Source of the DNA: Saccoglossus kowalevskii
Taxonomy: Eukaryota > Hemichordata > Enteropneusta > Harrimaniidae
Length of the DNA stretch: 64,000 nt
NCBI RefSeq assembly: GCF_000003605.2
Contig: NW_003122411.1
Location: forward strand, 53,979 to 117,978
Direction: 5' to 3'
Positions 10,637 to 59,986 of the stretch are shown here, piece by piece (positions within the stretch are counted from its first letter, which is position 1; the number at the start of each line of letters is the position of its first letter). The translations under genes and the position numbers were made by a program. The notes under the pieces are model-generated. The model was not told the origin of the DNA, made no database searches, and saw nothing but the letters and a program-made list of their open reading frames with translations.

Positions 10637-10696
10637 CTTATTCGCAATCCCTTTGCGAACATCGCTGACCTGTGACAGTTCCAAAACTTGACCATC
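10637..10696 (-). CDS. Gene B exon 3: PLC-beta PH-domain segment
   Basis: The exon is 60 bp (20 codons), phase 0 at both ends, bounded by a CAG acceptor and a GTAAAA donor on the minus strand. It encodes DGQVLELSQVSDVRKGIANK. This aligns with the PH-domain strand of PLC-beta proteins, which in PLCB4 begins EGQVLECSLINSIRSG by my recollection. It continues exon 2 at 16.5 kb in frame. The following exon, which should read roughly DPK then the GRxVCVCSG region, was not found to the left. No stop or frameshift is seen in the three joined exons. Confidence 0.8.
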
Positions 10697-13600
10697 CTGT
10701 AAGAATAGAAAAAAAAATTAAATATAATACCTCTATTAGGAGACAATAAGACATCTAAATAAAAAGGAATAGAGAAAAACTCCTGTGGACCTAAATAATA
10801 ACATTTTTTGTTAAGTGTTCAGCAGGTGATCAGAGTGTGTTATTACAGTGACAAAAACAATACAAATCAATTAATTTGTCAGCCAATCATATCTCAGGTA
10901 CACAGCAGCTACTGGAGGAAAATTTGACCCTGATACTAAAGCCGAGGCATGCGATAAAAGGTCAAAGATCAGAGTCAGAGAAATGTACCATATCAAAACA
11001 ATTACAAATGGTGAATGATGTTTCAGTTCTGAATGTCTCCGGTGAATGAACAGTATACTAGTAAACAAATTATTTACGCAAGGGGAAAAAACTCAATGGA
11101 CAGCTTATGTAATTTGTAATTGGACGTGACAAAATTGACGACATTTAAGTTTTGATGATCCGGCATGGATGTGTATTTATGAACTGGATGTAATAAAGTT
11201 GACGGCATATAAGATTTGACGATCTAGCATGGATGTATTTGTATGAATTGGACGTGATAAATTTGAAGACACCAAAAATTAGACGATTTGGCACAATAAT
11301 TTATAAATACAAAAAAAAATGTATTTATTGTTTACAGGATAGTGATCAGTTTGGATTTAAAATTCAGCATTGGTGTAGTGGAAATGGCAATGCAGTGTTA
11401 CATAGGCTATGTTGGCGACAAAATACATTATGATTTCACAAAAACTAAAAATGTAGATTTTGCATCACACTATATATGTATAATAATCGTTTATTGAAAA
11501 ATGAAAAACACTGCTACGGATGTGTACGTGGTAAAATAATCAGCGTACATGTACATGCGTAGAATGGTGATTTTTAATTTTTTAGTTAAACCATTACTCA
11601 GCTGCATGTTCAATGAATAGCGTTCTTAGTTGACAATAAATCATAATCCAATGTTTTTATCAAACTACAGCATCCAACAGCAGTATTACATGTTTTCATC
11701 CATATTGAATCAGCATTTTTTGAAAACATAGACACACTGCTTTTCTGGCAATGAAATATTTGTTTCTTCTTTTCATAAATAATTCCTCTTTGCTAATAAG
11801 ATTACTGTGTTTTTTTTCTGACTATAATCACTTCAGTTAGTCAGTGTTGAGTCTGCTTAAGTAAATTAACATGCAAATGTCACAAAACCCAGCTAAGTGA
11901 CTATATTTTGATTGACAGATGAAGGAGAGGTTTTGACAAGTATTGTCTGCAAATATGCCATATAACTCAGATTATGAAGACTGATAGGGATTGAAACATA
12001 CAAGATCAGATCGATACGGCTCTAGGTTCATCTTACCACAATGCCGAGGATAATTCTCACCTATGTTTGTTTGAATGTTGACCTACTAGGTAATTGTAAA
12101 GGGCATATGCCTGTCTTAGGGTGTAACGATTTTATTACCAAAATGGCTGCCAGTTGGCCAAATTCAATCAGATCAAAAAAAATAAAATTAGAGGTAACCC
12201 TTCAGATATGTATTCTGTGATATAGCATCTGTGTACCAACTTTGAATTTGTTATTGTATGCCACAGAAACGAATATAGGGAGAGATGAAAAATGGCTGTT
12301 AGTCGGCCATCTTGAACCTGAACTAATATGCACCTGTAAAGTATTGTCACCATATCAAGTTTAATTTAAATTGTCCAAGTCATCGATAAGAACCAATTGC
12401 GAAGTACCGGTATTATTATGATTTCGACCAAATTTACGTCTGGTAAAAAAAAAAATTGGCAGCCAGTCAGCCATAATTGATTGTATCAAAAACAAAATTG
12501 ATGTGCATACTTATGACAGCAGGTATTGGCTTTGTACCAAGTTTGAATGAAATGGCTCTTGACAGACACACAGATGGAACACAGATTGATAAATCTCAGT
12601 TTTTGAACTACCGTAATAGTAAAACAGGAACTAATAAAAAATCTCAACTAAGTCATCCTGTCATAATTGGTAATCTCTAAACTGAAATGCACTTTCGTGT
12701 ATAAAATTCATAACCAGGGAAACATGATAAATACTCTTCTCTGCGTCTTGATCCAATTTATGCATTAGTTCACAACTGGCATAGTTTATATAAAAGTGAC
12801 AAAAAACAGGTCATTGGAAAAATGAAGGACGCAATACAGATTTTTTTTCGTCAATTTTTGTGTTTTATCAGTAGAACATTCTAATCTACACAATATACAT
12901 TTGTACATGTACATACATTAATATTTAATTATGTAAATGAAGCAAAAATATTTGCATTGTAATAATAAGTAACAAAGTATGTAATACCCTGGTACAACAC
13001 AAATCATCTGAATTGAATTACCCCCCCCCCACACACACCCCCCCCCCAAACCAAATAAAGCATGCCATTTCAAACTTCTCATTTTAACTTGACTATTTAT
13101 CTGATGTTGACTGCTAATGGTTGTAAATTTATTATTTTAACATATGACTAATAGGTGAAAAAAAAACACCTCTTCCTGTGACAGTAACAGTCCGAAGTAA
13201 ACAAATATTCAGCTGCGTTACCAGGATATACGTCACAAGGTATTAAAACACTAATTCCAGCAACTAATTGGACTCACAGAAAAATAAAATGGAAACACAG
13301 GGGTTCACTAACTTAAAAGGTTTCATTCAAGGGTTACAAAGAGGATTGCGTGTAAATTATTCAAAAATCTAACGATACATTGAATGTATTTTGACTCATG
13401 AAGGCAATTAAGGTAATCTAAAAACGCACCACCGATGCAAATTAAGGAATTGCTGGAGAGTGCTTTCTATGAAAATTCTAATAGGGAAAAACACTCAGCC
13501 ATCATTGAAAAGCCCAAAAAATGTGTTTTACTCAAAAATAGAATAAAAACTCTACTGCTCAGAATCATTTTCTACAATCTACAAAATGCTGAATAGTATA

Positions 13601-16468: not shown

Positions 16469-16549
16469 TCTTGCTTCACTTTTCCACCTAATAAAGAAGC
16501 TCTGCTCGTCGACTTGGTAGAGACACTGCGCTTCCACCGAACATGTATC
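16469..16549 (-). CDS. Gene B exon 2: PLC-beta PH-domain segment
   Basis: The exon is 81 bp (27 codons), phase 0 at both ends, with a CAG acceptor and a consensus GTAAGT donor. It encodes DTCSVEAQCLYQVDEQ followed by SFFIRWKSEAR. The pattern CL(Y/F)(Q/K)VDE-x-x-FF-x-x-W-(K/R)-SE is the strand pair of the PLCB4-class PH domain. It joins exon 1 (ending FDRWDE) and exon 3 (starting DGQVLEL) in frame. Boundaries match where I recall vertebrate PLCB4 being split, supporting a real gene rather than a processed copy. Confidence 0.88.
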
Positions 16550-19771: not shown

Positions 19772-19855
19772 CTCATCCCAGCGATCAAAATATGCACCAT
19801 TCCTCAGATGATCCGGCACGTTTATCTGCCATTGAAAGTCGTATAATTTTGCCAT
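19772..19855 (-). CDS. Gene B exon 1: start-codon exon of a PLCB4/norpA-class phospholipase C-beta
   Basis: Gene B encodes a PLC-beta, the Galpha-q effector that cleaves PIP2 into IP3 and diacylglycerol at the plasma membrane. This coding part is 84 bp (28 codons): MAKLYDFQWQINVPDHLRN followed by GAYFDRWDE, then a GTAACT donor. Human PLCB4 begins MAKPYEFNWQKEVPSFLQ and continues GAVFDRYEE by my recollection. The shared MAK-x-Y-(D/E)-F-x-WQ start fixes both the class and the start codon. A pyrimidine-rich tract ending in CAAG about 60 bp upstream could be an acceptor, so a separate 5'-UTR exon near 20-21 kb is possible. The gene runs leftward through exons at 16.5 and 10.7 kb. It is a different gene from the PLC-beta at 36-60 kb, because its first exon lies downstream of that gene's stop codon on the same strand. 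Confidence 0.9.
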
Positions 19856-25535: not shown

Positions 25536-25939
25536 ATAATGCATGCGTTATAGCTTTAGGCCTTAAAGTGGGCTATCATGCAGTTTCTTTTAACATGGGT
25601 CGTTAGGATACAATAACATGCAGTGTGAGGCGACGGTTTAAGTACCGAATGTTTTTTTTGTTCATAATGCTATAATGCAATGCATTCACACACAGTATAA
25701 TAATAGTTTATTACGGAACTGTAATCTGCTGTGGATACAGTAAGGTAAAAATAGTGTAAAATAAAGCGACTAAAATAACTACAAATTTAAAAGTTCTAAT
25801 AACTACAAAACATCAGAAAGTAATGAAAATACATTAAATAAATCAAAGTAAAGGTAAAGGTTCTCCCTACCCAGGTTTACACAGGCGGTGCTTTGTATAA
25901 TGCTAAAATGTCTACCATGGGCTATCATGCAAAGTCAAC

Positions 25940-27039: not shown

Positions 27040-29560
27040 ACATTATCGCTACAAAAATAACAGCAAGAGAAACGACTTTATCTGGTGGAGGAAGCAAAGT
27101 AGACCAAGCAATTGGACTTATGACAGAGAGGACCAAAGCTGACAGAACATATCAGCCTGATAGCAGAGATCTACTAATGTCAAAACGCCACATGCAAATG
27201 GTAAATGAAATGAAGAGCTACAACCTGAGCTTACAGGGTGCCACAGGGGCAAAATGGACAAAAACAGGAAAAAGGTGAATGAGTACTGGAGATGCCATCA
27301 TCTGATCAGGAAAGTATGATGACATTCATCATAAAGAAGTTGCCTTCATTAATGTCAAGAAACAAACGCCTACTGTATATGAGAATGAGCTCCAAGTATG
27401 AAGTATACCAAGCTTTAAGTTATAGTGGCCTATGCACCAATAGACAACTCTGACGAGGAGGACATATTTCAATTCTACAGCGAGCTCCAAGCAACACTAC
27501 TGATGACATGCAGAGACCCTTTTCTCTTGATCTTTACACAAGAGAATAAAGAAATGTCATGGGGAAACATGGAATAGAAGACATGACTGATGATGGATGA
27601 CTCATAGACCTCTGAGAAGAATATGATCTTGTCATTGGTGATAAATATTTTGTTCACAAAAATGGACATTCCCAGATTGATTACATGATCATTAATGGAA
27701 AATGGAGGCGATCTCTACAAGATGTATGTGTGATGTAATATTCAGATGTTGGTAGTTACCAAGAATTATTGGTAGCAAAACTGGCCCTCGTTTTGATGTT
27801 GCCAAACTGAAAGATCTGTCAACAATGAAAGCATTCTGCATTACTCTGACAAATTGATTCAGCATCCTTTAATATGAAACATCAGTGACAATCAACAATT
27901 TAAACAAGGCTATAACCGAAACAGTGTGGAATCTGTGTGCATAAGAGCGAACACAAGGAAAGCCATTGAGGAGAAAAAATAGAACAAAAAGAAACTGCTA
28001 GATGCCAAGTCATCTAGACCAAAGAAAAGCAGCCCGGCACAGAGAGAAAGACAATGAAATGAAGTTGTCCTGAAGAAAGGTAAACGTCTCTATACAGAGA
28101 GGCTTGCTGGAGAAGCTGATAGAGCAGCAGAGATGGAAGATATGAAGACAGTGTATCTAACCACTGCAAAGTGAGGAGACGAACAGAAACAAAGCATACC
28201 GGTTAAGGCAGAAGACGTGCTAAGCTTGAGAGAAGGAGAGAGCACTTCCACAGGTCCTGATCCACCAACACCAGCTGACATTCTCATGACAGAAGAGGAC
28301 CTACTTTACATGGTTTTCATCGATTTTGATAAAGCCTTGACAGTTTGCACCACAATGAATCCTGTGAGATTATGACATTCAACAGAAATTGGTCAACATC
28401 ATCCAATCCCTGTATGAGAGGTTTGAGTATTGTATCATCCACAAAAACAGCTGATGGGACCATTCAAGAAGAACACCTGAGTGAGACAAAGCTGCATACT
28501 GTCACCGATCCAGTCCGGTCACTGGTAGCATAGTGATTGTCGCATCAGACTCATGATCAGTAGACCTGAGTTCAAATCCTACCTTAGGCTGAACACCAAA
28601 AAGGGTCAACCCCTACCCTGGGTGAGTGTGCCACGGACTCAATGGGAAGGCCAATTCCACTGGCTGAGATTCATTCACTAACGAATGTGACTTTTGGGGA
28701 ACCTTGGTTAAGGTCCGCAGGTGCTTGTGTTCGACCGGGCCTGGTTGACGCCAGGATAGCGCATTAAAATTGCCATTTGATAGGGAGATGGCCACACAGC
28801 CTTGTCATGTAGTCCCAAACAAGAAATGACTTCTGTGGCAAAATGCACTATGTGTCAGCACTAGCACTTGCAAATTGCACTTACAAAAAAAAAGTCTGGA
28901 GAGACAACAGTGACATTCAATGTCCGGAACTGTCGCCTGGCACAGAAAACATTTAAAAAAAAAAAAAAAATACTGTCACTGATCCTGTTCTCCCTGGTTG
29001 ATGCGAAACAGGTCATGAAGAAAAATGCCACAAACAGCAACTCAAACAAACAAACAAACAAACAAACAGTTAATGTCAAGCCTCTTGCTGATTTTCAGGA
29101 ATTTGTATACCTAGGCAGCAAGATGACAATAGATGGTAACTGCGACCAGAAGATCAACACCCAAATCAGCAATCCCAACCAATCGTTTACAATGTTCAGG
29201 CTCATCTGCAGAACCACCACTTTCAGCATTCAAACAAAGATTTGAATGAAGAACTGAAGGCTAGAACATGAGTCATGAAGAACACCATTTAGATGCTTTG
29301 ATGAAGATGGATAGGGCATATCTATCACTTGGCACTCAGCTCGCTTCTCAGGAAAGCCTTATGCTGGACCCTGAAGATAAAAGAAAACAAGGACCACCAA
29401 AGGAAACCTGGCGCAGAACCATAGAGAGGGAACTCAAAGACAAAGGAATATCCATAGACACAGCCCCCAGAGCACCCACAGGCAGAGCCAGGTGGGGATC
29501 TCTTGTCATCGCCTCAAGCGCCAGCAGCCTTGAAGAGGATTGAATGAATGAATTTTTGCG
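27040..29560 (+). mobile_element. Degenerate LINE with CFDP2-like endonuclease and reverse transcriptase, split by a SINE
   Basis: Stops and frameshifts interrupt one recognisable order. Endonuclease: MVNEMKSYNLSLQGATG near 27,200, VVAYAPIDNSDEEDIFQFY near 27,430, YDLVIGDKYFVHKNGHSQI near 27,630, and WRRSLQDV plus SDVGS near 27,705-27,750. Reverse transcriptase: FIDFDKA near 28,320. After the SINE: FQEFVYLGSKMTIDGNCD near 29,095, and the C-terminal tail GPPKETWRRTIEREL ending SSLEED at 29,541. This matches the APE-type endonuclease retrotransposons whose domain is annotated as craniofacial development protein 2-like (RTE-related by my recollection). The 3' end finishes in a short TGAA repeat, as expected for such LINEs. 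Part of the polymerase core is missing. Confidence 0.8.
28512..28970 (+). mobile_element. tRNA-derived SINE inserted into the LINE (full-length copy)
   Basis: The 5' end carries a pol III A box (TGGTAGCATAGTGATTGTC, near 28,524) and B box (GAGTTCAAATCC, near 28,569), so the head is tRNA-like. A central body and a poly-A tail of about 16 nt follow. A 16-bp target-site duplication flanks it: ATACTGTCACCGATCC at 28,496-28,511 and ATACTGTCACTGATCC at 28,970-28,985, with one mismatch. A second copy lacking the A box is at 58,313-58,720. I do not recognise the family name. Confidence 0.85.
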
Positions 29561-31499: not shown

Positions 31500-32580
31500 G
31501 GAAAAGCTTATGCAAATAAGGTAACTACTATGAACAGATTTAAAAGTAAAACTAATAAAGTCTGCACAGAATTAATATGGACAGATTTAATCCAAAATTA
31601 ATCAGGCTGTCTATTGTCCTAGAGCATTTATGTACCAAATTTTTATTCAAATGTGATGTTCAGTACTTGAGATACCAGTATTAATTAATTATGTTAATTA
31701 GGTGATTAAGAAGCATAAATATTTACCAAAAACTAATATGGTGTATAGTCCTAGGTTCATTGAAATGTGATGATGAGTACTCTTTAAAAGTGTCATTAAA
31801 ATCCAATGAGTGGTTCTTTAGACATCAGTGCAAAAGCCATGGAACAGCAAAAAATTAACTAATTATGCAAATTAGGTAATTAATATGCACCATTATTTAC
31901 CCCAAAATTAATCAGGTCTCTGCATAGTCCTAGAAGATCTATGTCGCAAATCTCATTACCCTAAAAACTATCAGGTCTGTAAAGTGTCATATGACATCTA
32001 TGTACCAAGTTTTATTGAAATGTTATGATTAGTACTTGAGATATCAGTGGAAAAGCCAAAAAGTAATTAATCATTGAGCAAATTAGGTAATTAATATAAA
32101 CAGATTTTTACCCAAAACTAATCAAATCTGTGCATTAGTTCAGAGCATCCATGTGCCAAGTTTCATCAAAATCCAATGAGTGGTTCTTAAAATATCAGGG
32201 GAACAGTCATGGAACAGCTTAAAATCAGTTAATTATCATGCAAATTAGGTAATTAATATTCATGGATTTACCCAAAACTAATATAATCTGCGCATTAGTT
32301 CAGAGCATCAATGTGCCAAGTTTCATCAAAATCCAATGAGTGGTTCTTCAGATATCAGTGGAAGTCATGGAACAGCTAAAAATTAGCTAATTATCATGCA
32401 AATTAGGTAGTTAATATGCATGGGTTTTAACCAAAACCCAATCAAATCTGCGCATTGGCCCAGAGCATCTATGCACCAAGTTTCATCAAAAACCGATGTA
32501 TGGTTCTTGAGATGTCAGTGGAACAGATGGACACACATACATGTACAGACACACTAACTGCAAAGACTCCCATTGTGTGC
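31500..32580. repeat. Tandem field of a roughly 160-bp repeat
   Basis: Five to six diverged units repeat GCAAATTAGGTAATTAATAT (near 31,866, 32,078, 32,240 and 32,398), then ACCCAAAACTAATCA, GTTCAGAGCATC, CCAAGTTTCATCAAAATCCA and TGAGTGGTTCTT. Isolated or tandem relatives occur at 37,910-38,180 and 50,150-50,800. Units are non-coding. Confidence 0.7.
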
Positions 32581-35074: not shown

Positions 35075-36087
35075 CGAGCCTACCGGCTTGTATTTATTTT
35101 AGCCAAATGCGCTGACAAATCCCTGATGTCCCCACTTTTCCTAAAATAGGAATTAATTTCCACAGCACTACAAAGGCCATGAATACACTAACATATAAAA
35201 ATATCAAATCTTGTCAAATTTGTTGAAGTTGAATTTGAATTATTTCAAGACTTCAATTACAAAATTTGGTGTTTTAATGATAAAAATAAACAAGACCCTG
35301 TATTAGGATGTTTACCTAATGCTTAGTTCACTCCATGTTGTTTCACATAATTCTGAAATATTGATAGATTCTTGACACCAATAATTTTGAGAACATAAAT
35401 AGAGTTGTTTAAAAAGGAGTAACAAAAGTTGACTGATGCTCAAGGGTTAATAGAAAAAAATGACAAAATGCTATAAAATTAGCTTTCCCAACTCAATATG
35501 TTCATATTTATCCCATATTTTTAGCTCATTTAATACAAAATTAAGTGTACAAAAATAACATGTAACAAATACAACCTGTAAATACTGTAACAATGACTGT
35601 TTGTGAAACAAAATGTTATTAATACTGTTGTTAACACATGCACCGTAACAAGATATGAAGACAGCACCATTTCTGAATTCAAGATAATTTTCTACTTTCC
35701 ACAACATAACTCTACATTTATAGAGATAAATAAGTATATAAAAAAATTAAAATTACTAGGTGGAAATACTAAAACTCTGATATATTGTGTGACGTACATA
35801 GAGTATATTGTGCTGCGATCAATTAAAGATATGATTGTTTGGTTTAGTGTCAATGAATCATAATTCAAAACACCTGTGTGATATGATTACTATTTTGTAA
35901 AGTGCTAAAACCAGGTTTATGAAAGTTTTTCATTATATATTAAAACCTGTGTTGCATTATATTAAAAAAAGTTAATATTTAATGAATAAGTACATGTGCA
36001 CTAACATGTTGAATTACTTTATGTTTTGTTCATCTGCAGTGTTCCCAGCACAACACCAACAAATATAATCCTGCTTTATGTAAATTA

Positions 36088-36093
36088 TTTATT
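36088..36093 (-). terminator. Candidate poly(A) signal AATAAA next to the gene A stop codon
   Basis: On the minus strand the stop reads TAGGAATAAATAA, putting AATAAA one base after the stop codon. If used, the 3' UTR would be extremely short. Other AT-rich hexamers such as ATTAAA lie further downstream, so the true site is undecided. Confidence 0.3.
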
Positions 36094-36094
36094 C

Positions 36095-36265
36095 CTACGA
36101 TGACAGTATTTCAATTCTATCAATATCATCAATTGACAATTCAGCGCCTGTATCTGTCTCATTGCGATTGTTGACTTCAACGTCTAATAGGCCTTGTTCT
36201 CGTAGGACCTCTCGCTCAAGGTTAGCATTTCGTCGCTTAAATTGATCTTGTATATCTTGTAGTGA
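36095..36265 (-). CDS. Gene A exon 15 (last in gene): C-terminus of PLC-beta
   Basis: The coding part is 171 bp (56 codons plus TAG), entered in phase 0 after a CAG acceptor. It encodes residues 599-654 of the visible product: SLQDIQDQFKRRNANLERE, then an acidic tail with DTGAELSIDDIDRIEILSS. The first part is the basic/hydrophobic end of the distal C-terminal helical domain; the rest is an acidic tail. It ends -ILSS, unlike Drosophila NorpA, whose C-terminal -FCA binds a PDZ scaffold by my recollection. Confidence 0.85.
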   Translation of the reverse strand, partial: SLQDIQDQFKRRNANLEREVLREQGLLDVEVNNRNETDTGAELSIDDIDRIEILSS

Positions 36266-36822
36266 CTGAAGGTGGATAAAATGAGAATGTATGTTATATG
36301 GCTTTCAACAAATGCTTGTTTATGAATGTTAAAAATCGAAGGTCAATTAGTGAAACTGGACAGTCAACAAATTTGTACAGAAGTGATGTACAATTTATAT
36401 TAAAAGAGGAAATAGCACTGATCTGCACAATAAATAAAATCATGACATAGTCCCTGTTTGTTTACAATGAAAGTTCATATAGGTGTACATGTGTACGTAC
36501 TTCCCAAAATAAACATCAGATATAAGTCCGACATAATGACTCAACTTTAGACATTGCAACCATCTGTCATTCAAAGTCAGCTTCTGGCAAAATTGTGTAT
36601 GTTGTGTATTTTGAAACATCAACTGTAGTTAAAATCTTAAAATTGGCAAATAATTCCCACAATTTTTAGAATGAATTCATACCAAGTTGCCATTCTTTAT
36701 CAATTGTGAAACATGGTGACGGCAGATGAACTAGTAATTGCGATGTGTGTCTATCTCAACAGGTTTGTCAACAATATTTCAAAACTAACAACAATCATGC
36801 CATTGTTCATAAATTTGCTTAA

Positions 36823-37745
36823 GGTAGAGATGCAGTTTACCAGACAGGTATTTTAATTAGTTAATTAGGAAACCAAGATGACCTCCCTTGTCCACAAAAC
36901 TATATATTTTCGAAAAGCTTATTGTATGAATTTTAAAATTTTGTTAGTATTTCTTTGTTATGTACACTGTAGTTTGAAATATGCACAAAAATGTGCTTTT
37001 TTGGTCAAAAGTGATGTAAAAAAAATTAGCTCCAAAACCATGCTTCTGTTTCCTGTCAAAATTGGTTTATGGGTACATTTGTTTACTATGAAGAAAGTGC
37101 CGTCTTGAAAACTGTCTACCAGTTGTCAATTTTGTAGGGCAGCAGCTCAAATTTCACTACTTCAAATTTATGCATAAATTAACCCACAGGCTAGTTGTCT
37201 GTAAGATTGTTGTAACACTGTTCAACCAAAAACAATGCTTCGACGGCGTTTTGAAGATAAACACATTATCAATCATTTGTGAAAATTTCAAAACAAAAGG
37301 TCAAAGCGTCTAGGAGCTATTTTTTTTTAAAGTTCTGGGATGTGCACTAAAAAGAAGCTGAGATAATTGCTAATTTGCATAACAATTCACTCAGTAAGAA
37401 GTTTGCTAATGCTCATAATTAAAATGGCTGTAACAATTCCAAATTTAAATGTATTATTATTTTGTAAAAAGTTAAATATAGAGCATAGTATGGAGATCCC
37501 ATCATTTCTTTTTTACACCATGTTTCTTTTTTATTATTCATGTACAGCCTTGCTAAATCTTGCTAAGCATTCAAAAGAGAGAATGTTTGCACCTGTTATC
37601 TATATTTTAAAATCGTTTTTTGAGTATGTTCCACTATTCACAATTCTACAAAATTTTAACAGTCTATAGCCAAGACTGTTTGGATAATAAAATGCAAAAA
37701 AGAAAAAAATTCACTCCCAAGTGCCCACAAACCTGCATCTCTACC
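36823..37745. mobile_element. TTAA-flanked 923-bp non-autonomous element with terminal inverted repeats
   Basis: Flanked by TTAA at 36,819-36,822 and 37,746-37,749. The ends are GGTAGAGATGCAGTTT and AAACCTGCATCTCTACC, inverted with a single mismatch over about 16 bp. The interior is AT-rich and holds two or three unrelated short frames (for example 37,367-37,669), none resembling a transposase. The layout fits a piggyBac-like non-autonomous transposon inside the last intron of gene A. Confidence 0.7.
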
Positions 37746-37909
37746 TTAACTTTATTTAATAGTAAACCAACTTCAAAAGCATATGAAGTATATTGTAATT
37801 AGTGTGCAATTTACGTAATTGAAATGAACGGATCAATTGGAAACATATATCAGACTATCATCTGTACGAGTGATATGCATGTACGATGTACCAAATAAAC
37901 AAACTGAAA

Positions 37910-38180
37910 ACAGTATAATATGTATGCAAATTATCTAATTAATATGCACATTAGTTAGCTATTATCGGACAATTAGCAATCATGCAAAAGTTTCAATGCA
38001 TTTAAGCAACAAAACAAACATACATTAACTGGTTAATTATTATGCAAATTACCTAATTAACATGCACAGATTTGTAAAAAATCAAATCAGGTCTGATGCC
38101 CATAATAAAAGTAGCTGTGCGGCAAGTTTAATTTAAATTCAACCAGAAGCTCTTGAGACAACAAATTTTGACTCAAAATG
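37910..38180. repeat. Dispersed copies of the 160-bp (AATTAGGTAATTAAT) repeat family
   Basis: Two partial units with ATGCAAATTACCTAATTAA, AATCAGGTCTG and a CTCTTGAGACA-like word correspond to the tandem field at 31.5-32.6 kb. Intronic in gene A. Confidence 0.5.
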
Positions 38181-38782
38181 GGCGAGTGGATTGACGAATG
38201 GACGGCCATACAGACAACAGTACATGTATAACATTACCAGCCAAATATTACCACATATGCTGACTATTTCCAATATGAAATAGTTTAATTTCAGTTTAAT
38301 TGAAAGATATTGACAATATAAACTGAATTGCAAGTGTCACTAAAAGAATAGTAAAATACGAATATCACAATGGCTGCACATTCCATAATTTATATGATAT
38401 TTTTTGATTACGTAAGGCTTTTTCCCCATTTTACACGCTTGTAAACTTGGACAAAAACTTTCCATTATGTTATTTTTTTTCAATAAATTTAGTGATTAAT
38501 CAATGATGGTGAATACCAAAATACTTGTTTATGGTTTGCATGAACTTTATGACAAATCAGTGAAATATGTGACATCAACACAAATTGTGGTTTTTGGTGA
38601 AAATAAATTCCAGCGACAAAAAAGTAATTATCAGCATTAATGAAGCTCATACTTATAAATTATCATTCAGTGTAAACATTTGCATCATACATGGGACTCA
38701 TATTGAATAGTACAGGGTGTGATGAGGGATGAAAATTATAATAATTTATAAGCTGATAATAATTAAATTAAGATCAACCTAC

Positions 38783-38869
38783 TTTGTTTTCCTCTTCAGT
38801 CAATTTCTCCTGTACATTTTTCATCGCACGTTCAAGCTGTTTCCTCTTTCTTTCTTGGAATTCAGTCAG
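38783..38869 (-). CDS. Gene A exon 14: distal C-terminal helix
   Basis: The exon is 87 bp (29 codons), phase 0/0, with a TTTACAG acceptor and GTAGGT donor. It encodes residues 570-598, LTEFQERKRKQLERAMKN then VQEKLTEEENK, a charged amphipathic helix. Basic clusters such as ERKRKQ are typical of the PLC-beta distal C-terminal domain, which binds membrane phospholipid and aids Galpha-q coupling. Confidence 0.85.
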
Positions 38870-39224
38870 CTGTAAAGATAAGATACACAGCACTTTTGAA
38901 TTAAACTGGTGCAGTTGCAGTGATTGAAAATGTTGACTGACAGTATTTTGATTTATTTAAACTAAAACTTTTTGTTGTTGTTAAGGTATAAATGTATATT
39001 GAGAAGTCAGTTTAAAGAAATGTTAGCTAATTATACAAGTTATTGAGAATGCCATTTCTACTCTTATACTTAATTGTAAAACAAATGGTCAGAATGTATT
39101 AAAAGTATAAACTTGAATTTCTATAATGTTGCAAGTACAGGAAGCAGATCAGAGTTTACTAGACTTACAACACAATTGGCTATTTTATGCATTTGAGAGA
39201 TATAAGTAGAATTGTGTGAAAAAA

Positions 39225-39420
39225 CGTCTACTGTCGATAGTCAGCCATCTTGGATTGGATATATAATCCAATTCAAGTTTGATCATGTGCATAAACACAA
39301 ATATCAGTGGACCAAGTTTGGTCTGCCGAACTTGGAGATCGTGCTCTGCACAGATAACATTAAAACATGGTGACCAGTTGCTATTTTGTTACCAAGATTA
39401 ACGCCAGTTGTTAATGGCAC
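39225..39420. repeat. Dispersed repeat copy (GATGTGCAT / AAGTTTG type)
   Basis: Contains GATAGTCAGCCATCTTGGA, CAAGTTTGATCATGTGCAT and CCAAGTTTGGTC in the family order seen at 3,090 and 12,120. Strongly diverged. Confidence 0.4.
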
Positions 39421-39541
39421 AATAAACATTAATTCTCATCTTTGATTAGAGGACCAGTTACTGTGACAAAGCCCTACTCGCTGCAAAAACTACTCGCTGT
39501 AAAAGCCACTCATCGAGAAGCTACTATTATCATGTATCAAC

Positions 39542-39753
39542 TACTGTACAATACTTTATTTTCGCTTGGAATTTATTTTCGCTATTTTCGCTGAAAGGGT
39601 GATTCCGTGAAAATAAAATCCAGCGAATATACTTTTTTTCCTATATTTCACATTAAACTCATAAAAAATCAGTGAAAATAAATTCCATACAAAATGCCCA
39701 AAAAGCCTTTTCAGCGAAAATTAATTCCAGCGAAAATAAAGTATTCCACAGTA
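39542..39753. mobile_element. Palindromic MITE, TA-flanked (family M1), full-length copy
   Basis: Ends ACTGTACAATACTTTATTTT and AAAATAAAGTATTCCACAGT inside TA dinucleotides. Same length and landmarks as 6,384-6,595 but in opposite orientation. It lies in the intron between gene A exons 13 and 14. Confidence 0.65.
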
Positions 39754-39891: not shown

Positions 39892-39949
39892 TGTCTTTCT
39901 GGCTGTTACAGCTTGATTTATGTGTTTCTGCTGAAATTCTCTTTTCAAT
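39892..39949 (-). CDS. Gene A exon 13: distal C-terminal helix
   Basis: The exon is 58 bp, entered in phase 2 and ending in phase 0, with a CCTTATAG acceptor and GTAAGT donor. It completes the split Arg 550 and encodes LKREFQQKHINQAVTARKT (551-569). Helical, Gln/Lys/Arg-rich, consistent with the PLC-beta C-terminal coiled-coil region. Very short, but phase and signals agree on both sides. Confidence 0.8.
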
Positions 39950-41009: not shown

Positions 41010-41105
41010 CTCTGCATTTCCTGTTTGTTTTTAATTCTTTTGTTTAGCGTTTTCATCTCTTCTCGGTTCTGAACAAACATTCTTTTCTGCAGCTCTGATT
41101 CTTCT
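41010..41105 (-). CDS. Gene A exon 12: distal C-terminal helix
   Basis: The exon is 96 bp, phase 2/2, with an ATAATCAG acceptor and GTGAGT donor. It encodes the end of Arg 518, then EESELQKRMFVQNREEM and KTLNKRIKNKQEMQR. Compare the segment of vertebrate PLCB4 rich in EMK, KQ and R before the RVRELN region. Because the phase is symmetric, skipping it would keep the frame. Confidence 0.82.
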
Positions 41106-41406: not shown

Positions 41407-41582
41407 CTTTTGTGAAATTTATCCATATCTTTAAGTTGGTTATCATGTGTGTTCACCATGATATTTCGTAGCAGTTCATTTTTAGCTTGCATATGCTTCT
41501 TTCTCATCTGCTGTTCCAAGTTATAATGCTCCTTGTACATGTCTATCAGTATGTTTGAATGAGTTTTTTTAAGATCTATCAC
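41407..41582 (-). CDS. Gene A exon 11: distal C-terminal helix
   Basis: The exon is 176 bp, entered in phase 0 and left in phase 2, with a CCTTAG acceptor after a T-rich tract and a GTATG donor. It encodes residues 460-517: VIDLKKTHSNILIDMYKEHY, NLEQQMRKKHMQAKNELLRN, then IMVNTHDNQLKDMDKFHK. The block E-LL-x-x-(I/L)-(L/M)-(I/V)-N-(A/T)-H-(E/D)-x-Q corresponds to ELLKKLLINAHEQQTQQLK of human PLCB4 as I recall it. That supports the PLCB4 assignment over PLCB1-3. Confidence 0.88.
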
Positions 41583-45585: not shown

Positions 45586-45655
45586 CTTTTCTTGTTGATC
45601 ATTGAGAATAGTCTGCATCTCCACATCATTCTGTCTCACAGTGTCTGTGAGATTG
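45586..45655 (-). CDS. Gene A exon 10: C-terminal domain
   Basis: The exon is 70 bp, entered in phase 2 (completing Gly 436) and left in phase 0, with a TTTTTTCCAG acceptor and GTAAAT donor. It encodes NLTDTVRQNDVEMQTILNDQ then QEK (437-459). It starts the second long helix of the distal domain. Confidence 0.8.
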
Positions 45656-46460: not shown

Positions 46461-46657
46461 CCTTCTTTTGATTTGTTTGCTTTCCTCATTGACTTATGAT
46501 GCCTCTTCTGCAGTCGGTCTTTGTTTCTGTTATGGATGCCTTGTAACTTGGCTAACTGCTGAGTTTGCATCTTTTTCAGTTTACTCTGTACTTTTTCCTG
46601 CTTCTTAATCATTTTATCCAATTCTTTCTGTTGCTTAGAAACTAATTTGACAAATTT
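46461..46657 (-). CDS. Gene A exon 9: first long helix of the distal C-terminal domain
   Basis: The exon is 197 bp, entered in phase 0 and left in phase 2, with a CATATAG acceptor and GTAAGT donor. It encodes residues 371-435: KFVKLVSKQQKELDKMIKKQ, EKVQSKLKKMQTQQLAKLQG, IHNRNKDRLQKRHHKSMRKA and NKSKE. It matches the PLC-beta pattern K-x-x-(V/L)KL-x-KK-x-x-KE-(L/M)-x-x-(L/M)-x-KK and is strongly basic. In family structures this helix packs in the elongated C-terminal dimer-like bundle used for membrane and Galpha-q engagement. Confidence 0.88.
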
Positions 46658-46810: not shown

Positions 46811-46854
46811 CTTATTGGTCTTGATGTCAGTTGAGTTAGCAGCCTCTATTTCAA
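46811..46854 (-). CDS. Gene A exon 8: microexon joining linker and C-terminal domain
   Basis: The exon is only 44 bp, entered in phase 1 (completing Val 356) and left in phase 0. It encodes EIEAANSTDIKTNK (357-370), with a TTTTCCAG acceptor and GTAGAA donor. It corresponds to the acidic lead-in (RIEDLKQ-like in PLCB4) before the long helix. Phases of both neighbours require exactly this length. Confidence 0.75.
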
Positions 46855-49539: not shown

Positions 49540-50130
49540 ACCACATGACCATATACGGTCATCTTTTACCTTTTGTCAAATGCCTTCATTATAGCACTGG
49601 TTTGATGCCCCTAACTGCATGATTGAGTACATTGTGCTTGAGATAATACAGTTCTGTATATTAACAATACCACATGATATCTGTAAAATGCCTTGATCAT
49701 AGCACTGGCTGCATATTCACTATCAGCAGTACCTAGTATAGTTATGCATATTAATTAGGTTACATGACCATATATGGTCATTTGATATCTGTAAAATGCC
49801 TTCATCATAGCACTGCCTAATACTCTAGTGCAGATTAATTAGGTTACATAACCATATATAGTCATTTGATATCTGTAAAATGCCTTCATCATAGCACTGC
49901 CTAATACTCTAGTGCAGATTAATTAGGTTACATAACCATATATAGTCATTTGATATCTGTAAAATGCCTTCATCATACATGTAGCACTGCCTAATAGTTA
50001 TGCATATTAATTAGATTACATGACCATATATGGTCATCTGATTTGCTATATCGCTTCTAAAAGGCCTCCGTTATAGCACTAGCTGCATGTCTTATCTGCA
50101 ACAGCGATTGAGATATTATAGCTATGCATA
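49540..50130. repeat. Minisatellite, 84-bp unit
   Basis: Two central units (from about 49,750 to 49,975) are nearly identical; flanking units are diverged. Each contains TTAATTAGGTTACATAACCA, TATATAGTCATTTGATATCT, GTAAAATGCCTTCATCATAG and CACTGCCTAATACTCTAG. The embedded ACCATATATGGT/AGTCATTT palindrome could form hairpins. Confidence 0.75.
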
Positions 50131-51164: not shown

Positions 51165-52235
51165 CTTTTAGCCCTTTAGTGGTGATAATTCCAATCACTT
51201 TGCAGGTCTTCTAGTATGTTCGCATCTGTACTCACAAAACAAAGGGAGCCCTCTAGTGGTGATAATTCCAACCACTTTTCAGGTCTTGTATGTTCACATC
51301 TGTACCCACAAAGCAAAGTGAGCCCTCTAGTGATGATAATTCCAACCACTTTTCAGGTCTTGTAGTATGTTCACATCTGCACTCACACTCAAAAGGCAAA
51401 GTGAGCCCTCTAGTGGTGATAATTCCAACCACTTTTCAGGTCTTGTAGTATGTTCACATCTGTACTCACACTTAAAAAAGCAAAGTGAGCCCTCTAGTGG
51501 TGATAATTCCAACTACTTTTCACATGGCTGATTCCAACCTCAAGTGTCATGGCGGACCAAACCAAAGGAGATTAGTAACTAGTAATGGTTCCAGCATTTG
51601 ATTTGTCTATGATGTTTTCATTCTTTGTTCTATTTAACCTTAGTTACTGGATATCAGTGCGTACGCTTGTGGTCGTTCTATGTATAAAGCAGGGTTTTTC
51701 TTCTACTCTCAAAAGTTGCACAAATATAAAACTGTTTTGTTCGTTATCACTTTGCACACTTACAGAATCATCTCAAATAAAAAGGCAGAAAGAATCGGCA
51801 TGGGCTCATAGCAGTAATGAAGACTTGTTCACAGGGGATGAAAATTGGAATGTTTTTAAATTATGTCATTTAGTCACGTGCCTTTGGGCTGGAATCCCAG
51901 TCCAGTGGAGCAATATAGTGACTATTAGTTACCTGCGTCCTACTTCACATAAGACGCCCGTAACCTGTGAAAGTTTCATGTTGCAAGCCCTCTAGTGGTG
52001 ATAATTTCAACCACATTATAGGTCTTGGAATATGTTTACTCACATAGCAAAGAGAGCCCTCTAGTGGTGATAATTCCAATCACTATGACAGGTCACAAAA
52101 TATGTTTCATACCTGTACTCATAGTACAAAGAAATCCCTCTAGTAGTGATAATTCCACTGACTTCGTAGATCTTAGAATATCTTAGCATTTGTACTCACA
52201 AAGCAAAGTGAGTCCTCTAGTGGTAATAAATAAAT
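51165..52235. repeat. Minisatellite, about 80-bp unit, split by a 440-bp insert
   Basis: Nine units each contain CCCTCTAGTGGTGATAATTC, a CAACCACTTTTCAGGTCTTG-like block and TATGTTCACATCTGTACTCA, with CAAAGTGAG at the junction. Five lie at about 51,165-51,530 and four at about 51,985-52,235. Between them 51,530-51,985 is unrelated sequence holding a 136-codon frame (51,585-51,995) that runs into the next unit. That frame is probably chance. Confidence 0.8.
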
Positions 52236-52961: not shown

Positions 52962-53087
52962 CTGCTTGATCTAGCATTGGAGCACTCTTGGTTCTATGGA
53001 TCTCTTCTTCTGCTATGGAATTACTTGCCATCAGGAGACGTGTATTAGCCAGAGATGATGACCTTGGAACACTATTTTGAACTGAAT
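52962..53087 (-). CDS. Gene A exon 7: Ser-rich linker
   Basis: The exon is 126 bp, phase 1/1, with a TTATTACAG acceptor and GTAAGA donor. It encodes residues 314-355: DSVQNSVPRSSSLANTRLLM then ASNSIAEEEIHRTKSAPMLD and QA. It lies between the Galpha-q-binding helices and the distal domain. The symmetric phase allows in-frame skipping. Motifs such as PRSSS and RTKSAP look like basophilic kinase sites, which is inference. Confidence 0.8.
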
Positions 53088-53342: not shown

Positions 53343-53607
53343 CTATAGAATGGCCTGACTTAGAACACATTGTGCTTTCTTTCATAGTAAGTAAAGCTTT
53401 GGCATTTGCCTTCTTGGAGCCATATTCTCCATTGGATTTTGTGTAGCTAACACTTGAGCTTCCATTTGATTCCTTAAATTCCAATATTTGTTTACTGTTT
53501 TGTGCTGTATTCGGCTCAGCATTGCCATTCTCTTCATTTCCTGCACCAACAATGTCTTTCTCTGTCGGCATTTTCATTCGACCAAACTGGTCGAGTTGAT
53601 CAGTGTC
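53343..53607 (-). CDS. Gene A exon 6: low-complexity linker
   Basis: The exon is 265 bp, entered in phase 0 and left in phase 1, with a TTTTAAAG acceptor and GTGAGT donor. It encodes residues 226-313, starting DTDQLDQFGRMKMPTEKD and continuing through Asn/Glu/Ser/Lys-rich sequence to KSGHSI. There is no recognisable domain. This linker is longer than the equivalent I recall in vertebrate PLCB4, so the visible product is about 100 residues longer. Confidence 0.8.
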
Positions 53608-54163: not shown

Positions 54164-54366
54164 CTCGTTTTCAAAATCTTCAGTCAACTCTTGCAACTGT
54201 TTCTCTCGCTTTTCAATCATGTTTTGATAGGCTATTGGATTTGCCAGAGCAGCAGCAAAGTCTGTTAACGTGTCTGGAACGTAGTCTTTGACATTAATTT
54301 TCATAAACAATGTTGGTAGCGTTAATGATTGGTTAGCTTCATTTCGAAGGGATATGTGTCGATAAC
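54164..54366 (-). CDS. Gene A exon 5: end of C2 and Galpha-q-binding helices
   Basis: The exon is 203 bp, completing Gly 158 and ending in phase 0, with a TAATTTCAG acceptor and GTAATT donor. It encodes YRHISLRNEANQSLTLPTLF and MKINVKDYVPDTLTDFAAA, then LANPIAYQNMIEKREKQLQE and LTEDFENE. YRHISLRNE-x-N is the last C2 strand region of PLCB4. The (L)-x-NPI turn followed by a helix matches the proximal C-terminal helix-turn-helix by which PLC-beta binds activated Galpha-q. Confidence 0.92.
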
Positions 54367-55105
54367 CTGAAATTAAACAAACGCTGATTAATATGCTTCA
54401 ATATTAAAAATGACGCAAAATTTATAATAGGTGATTCACCATTCACTGTGAGATCTCACGAACTGTGTGAAAGGCCTGGACCAAATGTTTGTCGTCAAAA
54501 ATCAAACGATTTGATTTTAAATTTGAGATCCCTTTTGTATAGCTCAATGTCGGAATGTCGATTTTCGAGAGGAGAATATTGCATTGAGATACCCTTCCTC
54601 CATCCAAATTGACCATCATCAAAAATGTAAAGCACATTATTGGGTTTGAAAAACCCTAAAAACATTATCATGTTTGTCAAATCCCAAGCACTGTAGCGTT
54701 ATGGCCATAGTTACTCCTGTTTTTACATTTGATTTCATGCATAACTCAGGATCGCAAAGTGACCGAAAAATAGTCTATTTGAAGTAAAAATGTAAGTGGA
54801 GAGCCTTTGGCCTTGTTAGTCAGATTTACAAGTTGCTGACCACAAGTGTGGGTGTTCCACTGCACGGGTATGAGGTACCATAAATAATAAAAATGGGAGA
54901 AACCTCAAATTGTTACAATTCATCATAATATTATTCTATATTTTATTTTCATAATTATTCATACGTCATCCATAGTACGATGTGAAACCCCCCCCCCCCC
55001 CCATCGCAAGACAAATACACTTGTTTGTATATTTCATCTTATACTTGACCGAACAGTAAAATATGTATTGTCTGTGGTGCTGTACAGATTCAAATTTGTC
55101 TTTAC

Positions 55106-55205
55106 CTGGTTGTAGTCCCTCTAATGGGAGAATACGATGACCTATCAATTTTCCATTTTCTTCTAGTACGGCGATCCTCAATACTGCTAAGTTTGGGAGC
55201 ACGAC
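55106..55205 (-). CDS. Gene A exon 4: C2 domain
   Basis: The exon is 100 bp, entered in phase 0 and left in phase 1, with a TTAACAG acceptor and GTAAAG donor. It encodes [19 protein letters not shown] then [15 protein letters not shown]. Human PLCB4 has [18 protein letters not shown] and LIGQRILPLDGLQAG by my recollection; PLCB1-3 read LP(V)xAIR at the end. PLEGLQPG thus points to the PLCB4/norpA class. Confidence 0.93.
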
Positions 55206-55499
55206 CTGTTAAGAATGATATACCATTACATCAAATTAAATACAAGAAGAAATTGATAGCATTCCAAAAAGAAGTTTTTATAGCTAAATTTTTTATTCTA
55301 TACAACAATTTTTTTTGAGCACCAATGGACACACAACAATCACAGCTTTAAATGTCATCTCTGATAGCAGTTGGAATCAATTTAATGGTAGATGCTTTTT
55401 TTTAAAGATAAATGTCAAGTCATATATTAATCAGAACTAAGCATGGTGAAATAAATTATGTAAATTAATATGTAAATTAATATGTACATGCGGTCTCAC

Positions 55500-55664
55500 C
55501 TTTTTAAAAACAAAAGGTTCCTCGTCATATATGGGGCTGATTCCATTTCCTTGCACAGTCTTGGTTCTGAAGCGTTTACGAACAGTGTCTGCTGGCAAGC
55601 CGTACATGTCTACTTCTACGTAGGTACTAACCTTCTTGTCACTCAAAAACTGGCCTGATATAAC
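55500..55664 (-). CDS. Gene A exon 3: first half of the C2 domain
   Basis: The exon is 165 bp (55 codons), phase 0/0, with a CATTTTCAG acceptor and GTGAGA donor. It encodes residues 70-124: [66 protein letters not shown]-x-x-TYVEVDM(Y/F)GLP is the signature start of the PLC-beta C2 domain. The MYGLPADT form favours PLCB4. Confidence 0.95.
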
Positions 55665-56262: not shown

Positions 56263-56669
56263 AAACTGTTGTTAGAGGTTTTATTCAATAGTGGACACAT
56301 TGTCACTTTTTGCATGTTATATACAGCGGCGTAGGAAAACATCCTAATTAACACATAATCTAGACTGATTTGTTCAGATTTACCATTATACCCGTAATAC
56401 ATTGTAACCTTTTCATAACAAACAATTTATAATAGTTTGTTTAATAATTAAATTGACGAGTCCACTGTAAAGAAGCAGATATACTGGTAATGCATGTACA
56501 TTGGGTTCATTATGAGGGAAAGACATGCAATGAGTTTATCATATAATGAAGGACAGAAAACTGTACCTTTGTTTATAAACCAACCACCAGCTTTCATTCA
56601 ATTTCTAATATTTCACAGTGATATGCTCAACACTGACTACGTCCACAATGCATGCATGCATGCTTTTAA

Positions 56670-56936: not shown

Positions 56937-57079
56937 TTAAGTGACATACAAAATTGTGGTCGTACTGTGACTGTTCAAAATAAAGGTTAGATAGTGCTAA
57001 TATTATGAAGACATAACATGAGAACAAGTCAGTTTCCTATTTGGCCTGAACAATACCCCTGAAATGTGCTTGAACCAAA

Positions 57080-57740
57080 AATCTATATCCCTTCAATCTG
57101 TTTCATACCACTGAGCATACATTCAAAGTTTGAATGAAATTGGTCAATGCAAGGCATATAAATCTGGAAAAAATTTATTTCCAATCTATTCCTTTGACCA
57201 AAAATTACATATTTTGATTCAAAATGACAACATTTTGGTTGTGAAATTGTATATATCAATATATGTGAAGTTTGAATAGAATTGATCAATGCATTGCCAA
57301 TAACAGGCAAAAAAATTTGTCACTCTACTATTTGACCAAAATGTTATATTTTGACCCTAAAAGACACTTCGATTGTATCAATATATGTAACACTTTTTGT
57401 ATTACCTACCGATATCTGTGAAGTTCAAATTAAATTTATCAATGCATTGCAGACCAAAAATGACATATTTTGACTACCCACCAAAAGACACTCTTAATAC
57501 ATTGTATGTGAATGTTGCTGAAATTGAGCAATGTATTGTCAACAACAGGCAACAACTTTTTGACCAAAAATGACATATTTGACCCCAATATACACTCTTA
57601 ATACACTCTCTCTATCCACATAATGTAAGTAACACATTTTGCATTCCCTATATGTGAAGTTTGAATTGGTCAATACATTGCCAATAACAGGCAAAAAACT
57701 TTTTTTTTTACCAAAATATAATAGCTATTTTGATTCATAT
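57080..57740. repeat. Tandem field, about 115-bp unit
   Basis: About five diverged units repeat TGACCAAAAATGACATATTT, an ATATATGTGAAGTTTGAAT-like word, GGTCAATGCATTGCC and AATAACAGGCAAAAA. The AAGTTTGAAT word relates it to the dispersed family at 3.1, 12.1 and 59 kb. Intronic in gene A. Confidence 0.65.
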
Positions 57741-57869
57741 AAATTTATAAAACATTTATAATGTCCCCAGCATACTTCCCGTCAATGTATCATAAAATTC
57801 ATTTTAACATTGTTCATTATAACAAGGTTACACTGTAGCACTTAGATTAAAACCCGATATTTTTAATAC

Positions 57870-58024
57870 CTTGACGGAGACTGTGCCTGCAACAATGCCA
57901 TCGACAGTTGACTCTGCAAATGGATCAAATCGTCTATTTGAACGTCTCATGAATTCTGGTTTAAGAATATATCCACATCTGCCATTGTATTCAAAAATAC
58001 CCATGTTTAGCTGCATTGCCAAAT
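57870..58024 (-). CDS. Gene A exon 2 of window: end of the catalytic Y box
   Basis: The exon is 155 bp, completing Asp 18 and ending in phase 0, with an AATTTCAAG acceptor and GTATTA donor. It encodes [38 protein letters not shown] and [20 protein letters not shown]-x-G-x-(F/Y)EYNG-x-(C/S)GY-x-LKP-(E/D)-FMRR ends the TIM-barrel Y region of all PLC-beta enzymes. The preceding exon is the 52-bp one at 59.9 kb. Confidence 0.95.
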
Positions 58025-58312
58025 CTTGAAATTGAAATAAAAATGAAATATTAGAACACATACATCTTTTATTATAGTAGCCAATCACACAACTAATAAA
58101 ATAACTACCTTCCCATAACTGGTCATCTTTTGTGCATTTCAACACTTTTGAAAAGCGTAAATGTATATCTGACGTACACTGATGCTCAAAGCCTACTTAG
58201 TAAGTTAAATTTAGAATATTTTTTTTGATTTAAACAGTTTGTCTTTCTTCAAGCAGTTTCACCTATGATTCTATATATATACATACATTGTAAAGAACTA
58301 TTTATACACACA

Positions 58313-58720
58313 GACCTCAGTTCGAATCCTACCTTAGGCTGAACATCAAAAAAGTTGACCCCTACCCTGGGTGAGTGTGCCACAGACTCTTTGGGAAGGC
58401 CAATTCCACTGGCCGAGATTCATTCACTAATGAATGTGACTTTGGGGGAACCTTGGTTAAGATCCGCAGGTGCTTGTGTTGGGCCGAGCCTGATTGACGC
58501 CAGGATAGTGCATTAAATTGCCATTTGATAGAGAGATGGCTGCACAGCCTATATATAGCCACGTGTGTAGTCCCAAAACATGAATATGACTTCTGTGGCA
58601 AAAATGCACTATATGTCAGCGTTTGCAACTTGCACATACAAAAAAAAAGTCAGGAGAGACAACAGTGACATTCAATGTCCAGAACTGTTGCCTGGCACAA
58701 AAAACATTTAAAAAACAACA
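58313..58720 (+). mobile_element. 5'-truncated copy of the tRNA-derived SINE
   Basis: Begins at CAGACCTCAGTTCGAATCC, keeping the B box (GTTCGAATCC) but not the A box. It then follows the body of the 28.5-kb copy closely to the ACATTTAAAAAAC tail. The body includes CTACCCTGGGTGAGTGTGCC, GGTTAAGATCCGCAGGTGCT and ACAGTGACATTCAATGTCC. It lies in the intron between the first two gene A exons. Confidence 0.85.
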
Positions 58721-58959
58721 ACTGATGCTCTAATATAAATCCTCAATATATGTCTTTTTTTCAACCACAATTTTATGATGCAGATGAAATGCATCTGAAT
58801 CTATTCATAAATCATTACACAGAATGGCAGAAATGATCCTACCCATCCACAGTATATGAAGTGTACGTCCCTCATGTATCTCATGAAAAAAAAAAATTGA
58901 AATTTTCAGTGAAATATGGTCAAACAATAAACTTTAAAAATGAAAAACAAATGTACATG

Positions 58960-59170
58960 TACATATTTTTACAGAATGGCCATCTTGAATCAGATCGTGA
59001 AACAAATTGATGTGCATATGTATAATATTATGTATGATGTATGTGTGAAGTTTGATTGTGATTGGTCCAGGCATGTCTAAGATACAGGTACAGGATGCAC
59101 GGACACACGGATGCACAAATGTCAAAAGATAAGTCCCTGTTTTCAGAATGTGTTCGAATGGGGACTATTA
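58960..59170. repeat. Dispersed repeat copy (GATGTGCAT / AAGTTTGAT type)
   Basis: AATGGCCATCTTGAATCAGA, AAATTGATGTGCATATG, GTGAAGTTTGATTGTGATTG, GGTCCAGGCATGTCTAAGA and GAATGTGTTCGAATGGGGAC occur in order. Closely parallel to 62,755-63,060. Confidence 0.6.
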
Positions 59171-59476
59171 TGAACTTGCAATCTAAAAAATAATAGCAAC
59201 AGAAGCGATGATGACATAATTTGTTCAACTTCTATACACCTTTCTTTCATTTCATTTCACCACCAGTTCTCTTTTTTCAGCACAACTTCACAAAATAATC
59301 ATTTATAGTCTGCACTTTCCTTCAGAAAATTGTGAAAAACTGAAAATTCACTCAAATTTTGTCAGTTCGCTCAAATCCATGCAGAAATATTAAAGAATAT
59401 ATCGAAAAAGTACAGAAAAATTTGAGCAAGAAAGTGTGGCAGTGAAAGAGTTAAAGGCAAGACAAAAACTAAATAC

Positions 59477-59886
59477 AAAAATGAATACACCTGGATATGT
59501 GCAGCCCTTCAAATTAAAACCACAGGATGTAGTGTAGAGTAATGGAGAAATGTTTATCAAAAATGAATACACCTGGATATGTGCAGCTCTTCAAATTAAA
59601 ACCACAGGATGTAGTGTAGAGTAATGGAGAAATGTTTATCAAAAATGAATACACCTGGATATGTGCAGCCCTTCAAATTAAAACCACAGGATGTAGTGTA
59701 GAGTAATGGAGAAATGTTTATCAAAAATGAATACACCTGGATATGTGCAGCTCTTCAAATTAAAACCACAGGATGTAGTGTAGAGTAATGGAGAAATGTT
59801 TATCAAAAATGAATACACCTGGATATGTGCAGCCCTTCAAATTAAAACCACAGGATGTAGTGTAGAGTAATGGAGAAATGTTTATC
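59477..59886. repeat. Five-copy 82-bp tandem array with alternating variant
   Basis: Five copies start at 59,477, 59,559, 59,641, 59,723 and 59,805. They appear identical except for one position (GCAGCCC versus GCAGCTC), which alternates C, T, C, T, C. The array begins about 49 bp inside the intron from the donor of gene A exon 1 of the window. The length is not a multiple of three and there is no coding significance. Confidence 0.92.
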
Positions 59887-59934
59887 AAAAAAAATAAATA
59901 TAAAAGTCATATTTACAGTAATTCAAACACTTAC

Positions 59935-59986
59935 CTAAAATTTGGAAATTCAAAGCAACCAACTGACAACCACAGTTCCAGAATAC
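59935..59986 (-). CDS. Gene A exon 1 of window: Y-box segment of PLC-beta
   Basis: Gene A encodes a PLCB4/norpA-class phospholipase C-beta that hydrolyses PIP2 downstream of Galpha-q. This 52-bp exon enters in phase 0 and leaves in phase 1, with a TATTTCAACAG acceptor and GTAAGT donor. It encodes VFWNCGCQLVALNFQIL plus the first base of Asp 18. The motif (I/V/L)FWN-x-GCQ-(M/L)-V-(A/S)-LN-(F/Y)-Q-x-x-D-LAMQ is invariant in PLC-beta Y boxes. The preceding YNKRQMSRIYPKG-type exon was not found to the right, so the 5' half of the gene lies beyond the window or in an unrecognised exon. Confidence 0.92.

Follow-up and report, generated by a model that had tools for sequence, protein, structure and literature searches.

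A PLCB1-class phospholipase C-beta gene most likely lies head to tail with the start of a PLCB4-class gene in Saccoglossus kowalevskii

Both classes of phospholipase C-beta (PLC-beta) cleave PIP2 on activation by Gq. In flies, the PLCB4 class acts in rhabdomeric phototransduction; the PLCB1 class mediates Gq signaling in general. Drosophila has one gene per class, norpA and Plc21C, as we observe here, and the two fly genes are located on different chromosomes. Humans have three genes of the PLCB1-3 class, compared with the one seen here. On human 20p12, PLCB1 is followed head to tail by PLCB4, as in the locus described below, according to two reports (PMC2480480, PMC4593004). The first places PLCB1 at 8.6 Mb and PLCB4 at 9.4 Mb, approximately 0.8 Mb apart, whereas here 16.2 kb separate stop and start (PMC2480480). 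The second lists rs6140791, at 8,906,575, as “PLCB4/PLCB1 upstream/downstream/intron,” which we take to mean a position upstream of PLCB4 and either inside PLCB1 or downstream of it (PMC4593004). Cnidarians have both classes, beta1 and beta4, so the class split predates Bilateria, and Hydra, unlike the animal studied here, carries three PLC-B1 copies in tandem (PMC9776813). Among the matches listed in the open-licence literature, in titles and abstract openings, no description of PLCB1-PLCB4 linkage outside vertebrates was found.

The stretch of DNA analyzed here (the window) comprises 64,000 nt with an N count of 0 (C1493:53979-117978) and belongs to an assembly of 572 Mb in 4,830 contigs, which served as the genome in the genome searches. 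On its minus strand we observe the C-terminal half of one PLC-beta gene (gene A, 59,986 to 36,095) and, head to tail with it, the first exons of another (gene B, 19,855 to 10,637), the spacer from the gene A stop to the gene B ATG measuring 16,239 bp and being likewise free of N. That two PLC-beta genes stand here head to tail on one strand had been proposed in the initial annotation and is borne out by the exon models and Pfam matches; its coordinates, strand, exon phases, and spacing also agree with the exon model. We assign a probability of roughly 85% to the reading that the window contains a PLCB1-class gene followed by the start of a PLCB4-class gene whose remainder is on a second contig, C223. 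Most likely, then, the locus pairs the two old PLC-beta classes, with one gene broken up in the assembly, and does not consist of two norpA-type genes. Elsewhere in the window, Pfam returned nothing above cut-off for 10 other ORFs, and Rfam (at gathering scores) and ARAGORN each returned 0 matches.

Gene A encodes a PLC-beta of which the window contains the C-terminal half, with 14 exons whose joined length is 1,878 nt, equal to 625 codons with a single, terminal stop; its introns span 153 to 6,107 bp and are GT-AG in 13/13 cases. Two Pfam models score above their cut-offs, PI-PLC-Y at 60.2 bits (cut-off, 28.8) and PLC-beta_C at 39.9 bits (cut-off, 27.6), and the C2 model of Pfam gave no match to gene A at E<=1. 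The PLC-beta chain 3qr0 of the PDB aligns with residues 1-217 over their whole length (322 bits), and a C2 domain is assigned because of this alignment to PLC-betas in the PDB. Exon A1 (59935..59986; VFWNCGCQLVALNFQIL) encodes part of the Y domain, and exon A2 (57870..58024) runs from the end of the Y domain into C2 and is supported by the genomic PI-PLC-Y match at C1493:111929-112021. Exons A3 (55500..55664) and A4 (55106..55205) fall within C2 by the same alignment, and exon A5 (54164..54366) holds the end of C2 and a PLCB1-like proximal linker (KDYVPDT..NPIAYQ). For exons A6 (53343..53607) and A7 (52962..53087), both in the linker, and for exon A8 (46811..46854), the only basis is an open frame with splice sites. 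The distal C-terminal coiled coil is encoded by exon A9 (46461..46657), with further coiled coil in exon A11 (41407..41582). Exon A10 (45586..45655) was placed by a homology match at E 5.0 together with the exon model, exon A12 (41010..41105) by the exon model, and exon A13 (39892..39949), the least certain of the model, by a search of frame, splice sites, and phase. Finally, exon A14 (36095..36265) carries the stop codon. The encoded C-terminal end (36095-36130) reads EILSS and differs from the usual C-terminal PDZ ligand of vertebrate PLC-betas.

No PH, EF-hand, or X exons of gene A were found in the window. Its 5' half would lie in the right flank, where C1493:117,979-167,899 reads as N only. 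A genome-wide census of X domains yielded 18 matches on 8 contigs (C223, C2862, C352, C4339, C4724, C3803, C1737, and C3160), and on the five that were inspected (C223, C2862, C352, C4339, and C4724) no X domain was recognized as that of gene A. Contig C4724, with X matches and no Y match, was considered as a source of this domain and rejected, its letters looking by eye like those of a PLC-gamma.

Gene B is a member of the PLCB4/norpA class. Its start-codon exon B1 (19772..19855; ATG, MAKLYDFQWQINVPDHLRNGAYFDRWDE) and two PH-domain exons, B2 (16469..16549) and B3 (10637..10696), each have a length that is a multiple of three and are open, with GT donors and, ahead of B2 and B3, AG acceptors. 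The chance level for tblastn was taken from the best score in each of 60 dinucleotide-preserving shuffles of the window (median, 20.4; maximum, 26.2), and B1 (40.8) and B2 (31.6) exceed the best score of 60/60 shuffles. Exon B3 is weak when taken alone, with 28.1 against norpA in an alignment that overruns the splice site and 22.7 against PLCB4, within the shuffle range; it was accepted because of its place, its frame, its splice sites, the PH_14 match, and its fit to C223. The three exons together match PH_14 with 65.9 bits over profile positions 2-62 (cut-off, 22.7). Over the 75 encoded residues, identities amount to 38/71 with norpA, 36/75 with PLCB4, and 20/58 with PLCB1, and a tree of these residues separates gene B, norpA, and PLCB4 from PLCB1/2/3, PLC21, and Plc21C with a support of 99/100. 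Placements of gene B with the PLCB1-3 group (AU p 0.0003) or with cephalopod PLC21 (0.002) are both rejected, and a position just outside the norpA-PLCB4 pair is as likely as one inside it (AU 0.458).

Beyond exon B3, 48 kb to the left are readable (C1493:16110-64614), and no PLC-beta exon was detected in them at E<=0.05, a threshold that B3 itself does not reach and at which short exons can be missed; C1493:1-16109 reads as N only. The exons of gene B that the initial annotation had suggested seeking in the flank were not seen in this readable stretch, and their likely place is C223, whose plus strand carries PLCB4 exons from residue 75/76 (12,696) to residue 991 (34,958) by tblastn. The pieces cover PLCB4 residues 75-475 (with gaps of <=9 residues), 543-858, and 914-991. 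Exon B3 ends at PLCB4 residue 75 in phase 0, and exon 4 (C223:12696-12836) begins at residue 75/76, also in phase 0 and behind an AG acceptor, with the two parts meeting to within one residue. In addition, exons 4 and 5 on C223 match PH_14 with 56.5 bits over profile positions 69-131, and joining them to gene B raises the match to 128.4 bits over positions 2-131. A genome search with PH_14 returned C223 only and missed the short exons of gene B. C223 has Y and C2 exons of its own; Pfam matches its X and Y domains, and only tblastn its EF-hand and C2. Joined to gene B, these exons would give one gene with PH, X, Y, C2, and C-terminal coil. The far end of the PLCB4 C terminus was not found on this contig, which contains an N run at 35,292-39,577.

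Judged by these sequence matches, C1493 and C223 most likely carry parts of one and the same PLCB4 gene, with gene B as its 5' end. An assembly break in the third intron of gene B would put the remainder of the gene on C223; the left ends of the two contigs would abut, which would make intron 3 at least about 77 kb long (64,614 + 12,695 bp). A reading of gene B as a three-exon pseudogene had been raised when C1493:16110-64614 gave no further exon and was dropped once C223 supplied exon 4.

The initial annotation had also allowed for a misassembly or a rearrangement in which the 5' end of one gene came to stand after its own 3' end. It would suit such a single shuffled gene, with gene B as the 5' end of gene A, that the window parts of the two do not overlap. 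However, gene B continues in phase on C223, which has its own Y and C2, gene B is of the PLCB4 class and gene A falls outside the norpA-PLCB4 pair, and there are zero N between them. We hold this explanation to be extremely improbable, and it was discarded on account of the continuation and the completed PH_14 on C223.

A different possibility is that gene B represents a stray 5' fragment copied beside gene A, with the true exons 1 to 3 of PLCB4 in the unread start of C223. The N-only stretch C223:1-4010 leaves room for them, another set of exons 1 to 3 could hide either there or in C1493:1-16109, and the readable 48 kb past B3, short exons aside, would be as empty as observed. Yet the gene B exons are open and bordered by the expected splice sites, and a genome search with the 75 residues at E<=10 found, in the readable stretches, 3 places, which are the three exons on C1493. 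PLCB4 residues 1-74 gave no match in C223:4011-12695 at E<=0.5. This makes a stray copy quite improbable, and one PLCB4 gene divided between two contigs remains our preferred reading.

Two further features of C223 were observed. The exons at C223:25416-25572 and 25690-25834 are consecutive, homologous PLCB4 exons (TTNIHPLLSSLVNY..) of 157 and 145 nt in the same phase, and, located before the Y domain, they have the appearance of alternative exons used in a mutually exclusive manner. Downstream of PLCB4, open frames at 54594-55298 (+), 62901-63329 (-), and 68060-68452 (+) resemble by eye a B3GAT-type glucuronyltransferase, the UIM region of ataxin-3, and a NEK-type kinase, respectively.

The class of gene A was addressed with an unrooted tree and with trees rooted on the outgroups delta1, zeta, and gamma1. 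The unrooted tree sets norpA and PLCB4 apart from gene A and all the rest (100/100), and trees constrained to pair gene A with either of these two are rejected (delta lnL 48, AU p about 1e-8). In the best trees of four rooted runs, gene A groups with the PLCB1-3/PLC21 class (SH-aLRT/bootstrap, 89/68, 100/65, 87.5/69, and 87.4/66), this class being ahead of the PLCB4 class by a delta lnL of about 5; in one of these best trees norpA and PLCB4 are split up at weak nodes. Gene A as sister of all is compatible with rooted analyses (AU p 0.158 and 0.202). Gene A falls outside the vertebrate PLCB1/2/3 clade with supports of 97 to 100, which, for a single gene of this class, suggests a non-vertebrate animal.

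Pairwise identities over 215 residues of gene A are 148 for PLCB1, 140 for PLCB4, 139 for Sepia PLC21, 138 for Loligo PLC21, and 134 for norpA, to which are added 134/214 for PLCB3 and 159/220 for Plc21C; norpA and PLCB4 share 157/217. At 8 columns where norpA and PLCB4 agree against PLCB1, PLCB3, and both PLC21 sequences, gene A sides with the PLCB1 class at 6 and with the PLCB4 class at 2. At 23 columns that separate norpA and PLCB4 from PLCB1 and PLCB3 without regard to PLC21, it agrees with PLCB4 at 10, with PLCB1 at 8, and with neither at 5, with corresponding control counts of 8, 8, and 7 for Sepia PLC21 and 3, 13, and 7 for PLCB2. The proximal linker scores 132 against PLCB1, 79 against PLCB4, and 78 against norpA.

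The genome's own PLCB4 provides a yardstick: over the core, the C223 gene is identical to human PLCB4 at 186/220 positions (85%) and gene A at 140/218 (64%), and gene A and the C223 gene share 138/218 (63%), so that the C223 gene is closer to human PLCB4 than to gene A. Gene A as sister of the C223 gene is rejected with a delta lnL of 83 when Plc21C is included and 60 when it is left out. Because of this yardstick, and because both classes are already present in cnidarians, gene A is best read as a member of the PLCB1-3/PLC21 class, to which it most likely belongs.

The initial annotation had assigned both genes to the PLCB4/norpA class, and the phylogeny that it called for upholds this label for gene B and withdraws it from gene A, which does not stand beside norpA or PLCB4; the PLCB1-3-class gene that it had thought the animal might also have is most likely gene A itself. 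A tandem duplication that produced two PLCB4/norpA-class genes would fit with exon A3, which is 72% identical to PLCB4, and with the distal C-terminal region of gene A, which scores 274 against PLCB4, 243 against PLCB1, and 157 against norpA and in the PDB reaches 47.6 bits with 6ird_B, a PLCB4 chain, compared with 13.4 for PLCB3 and 13.3 for norpA. In addition, a position of gene A on the stem of the PLCB4 class is compatible with the rooted analyses (AU p 0.157, 0.056, 0.071, and 0.083). Against this, the placements beside norpA, PLCB4, or the C223 gene are rejected by delta lnL values of 48 to 83, so that a tandem duplication of PLCB4 inside the clade of the fly and human genes is rejected, and a PI-PLC-Y census of the genome (8 matches on 5 contigs) gives, besides gene A on C1493, one other PLC-beta locus, the PLCB4-class gene on C223. 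A second PLCB4-class gene therefore appears improbable. The Y domains on C4339, C2862, and C352 were judged by their tblastn scores not to be PLC-beta.

With gene A read as PLCB1 class and gene B as PLCB4 class, their head-to-tail order is probably a retained ancestral linkage, as opposed to a recent duplication or a single shuffled gene. Gene A and the C223 gene are not closer to each other than to their orthologues in other phyla, as recent tandem duplicates would be. Three of the four introns between A1 and A5 lie at the codon and phase of introns in the C223 gene, which has two more in this region. An old tandem duplication would have produced the head-to-tail order that is also seen as human PLCB1-PLCB4. 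We lean toward a duplication before the vertebrate-invertebrate split, with order and linkage kept here and in human, perhaps through regulatory DNA that both genes share, located in the 16 kb spacer and the long introns. The genes past PLCB4 on C223 are unlike the human neighbors, and LAMP5, probed as a conserved neighbor on C223, gave a single weak match that contains a stop (E 0.013), as might be expected if genes A and B had come together by rearrangement at a later time or by chimeric assembly of the contig. However, order and orientation equal those of human PLCB1-PLCB4, and the two genes represent two classes of one family, which makes a secondary adjacency unlikely, if less so than the other alternatives, and retained linkage the reading that we favor.

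Several repeats were observed in and between the genes. A tandem repeat (59476-59891; unit of 82 nt, 5.1 copies, 98% matches) is located in the intron directly after exon A1 and ends about 44 bp from the donor of that exon. Further tandem arrays at 51170-51522, 49745-50042, and 32078-32526, with units of 83, 84, and 160 nt, lie in gene A intron sequence and in the spacer between the genes. A dispersed repeat joins 28599-28966 in the spacer with 58348-58721 in the A1-A2 intron (two blocks; identity, 90-91%), and an inverted pair is formed by 6384-6598 and 39539-39753 (88%). The dispersed and inverted repeats are possibly mobile elements.

By analogy with the described members of each class, it is plausible that the PLCB4-class gene acts in rhabdomeric phototransduction and the PLCB1-class gene in general Gq signaling. 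For annotation, a second norpA-type gene becomes needless, and PLCB4 may be annotated as one gene over two contigs. If confirmed in more phyla, the kept linkage would trace the origin of both PLC-beta classes to one tandem duplication and would date it. Under the same condition, it would become testable whether shared cis-regulation keeps a gene of rhabdomeric vision (PLCB4/norpA) and a general Gq effector together.
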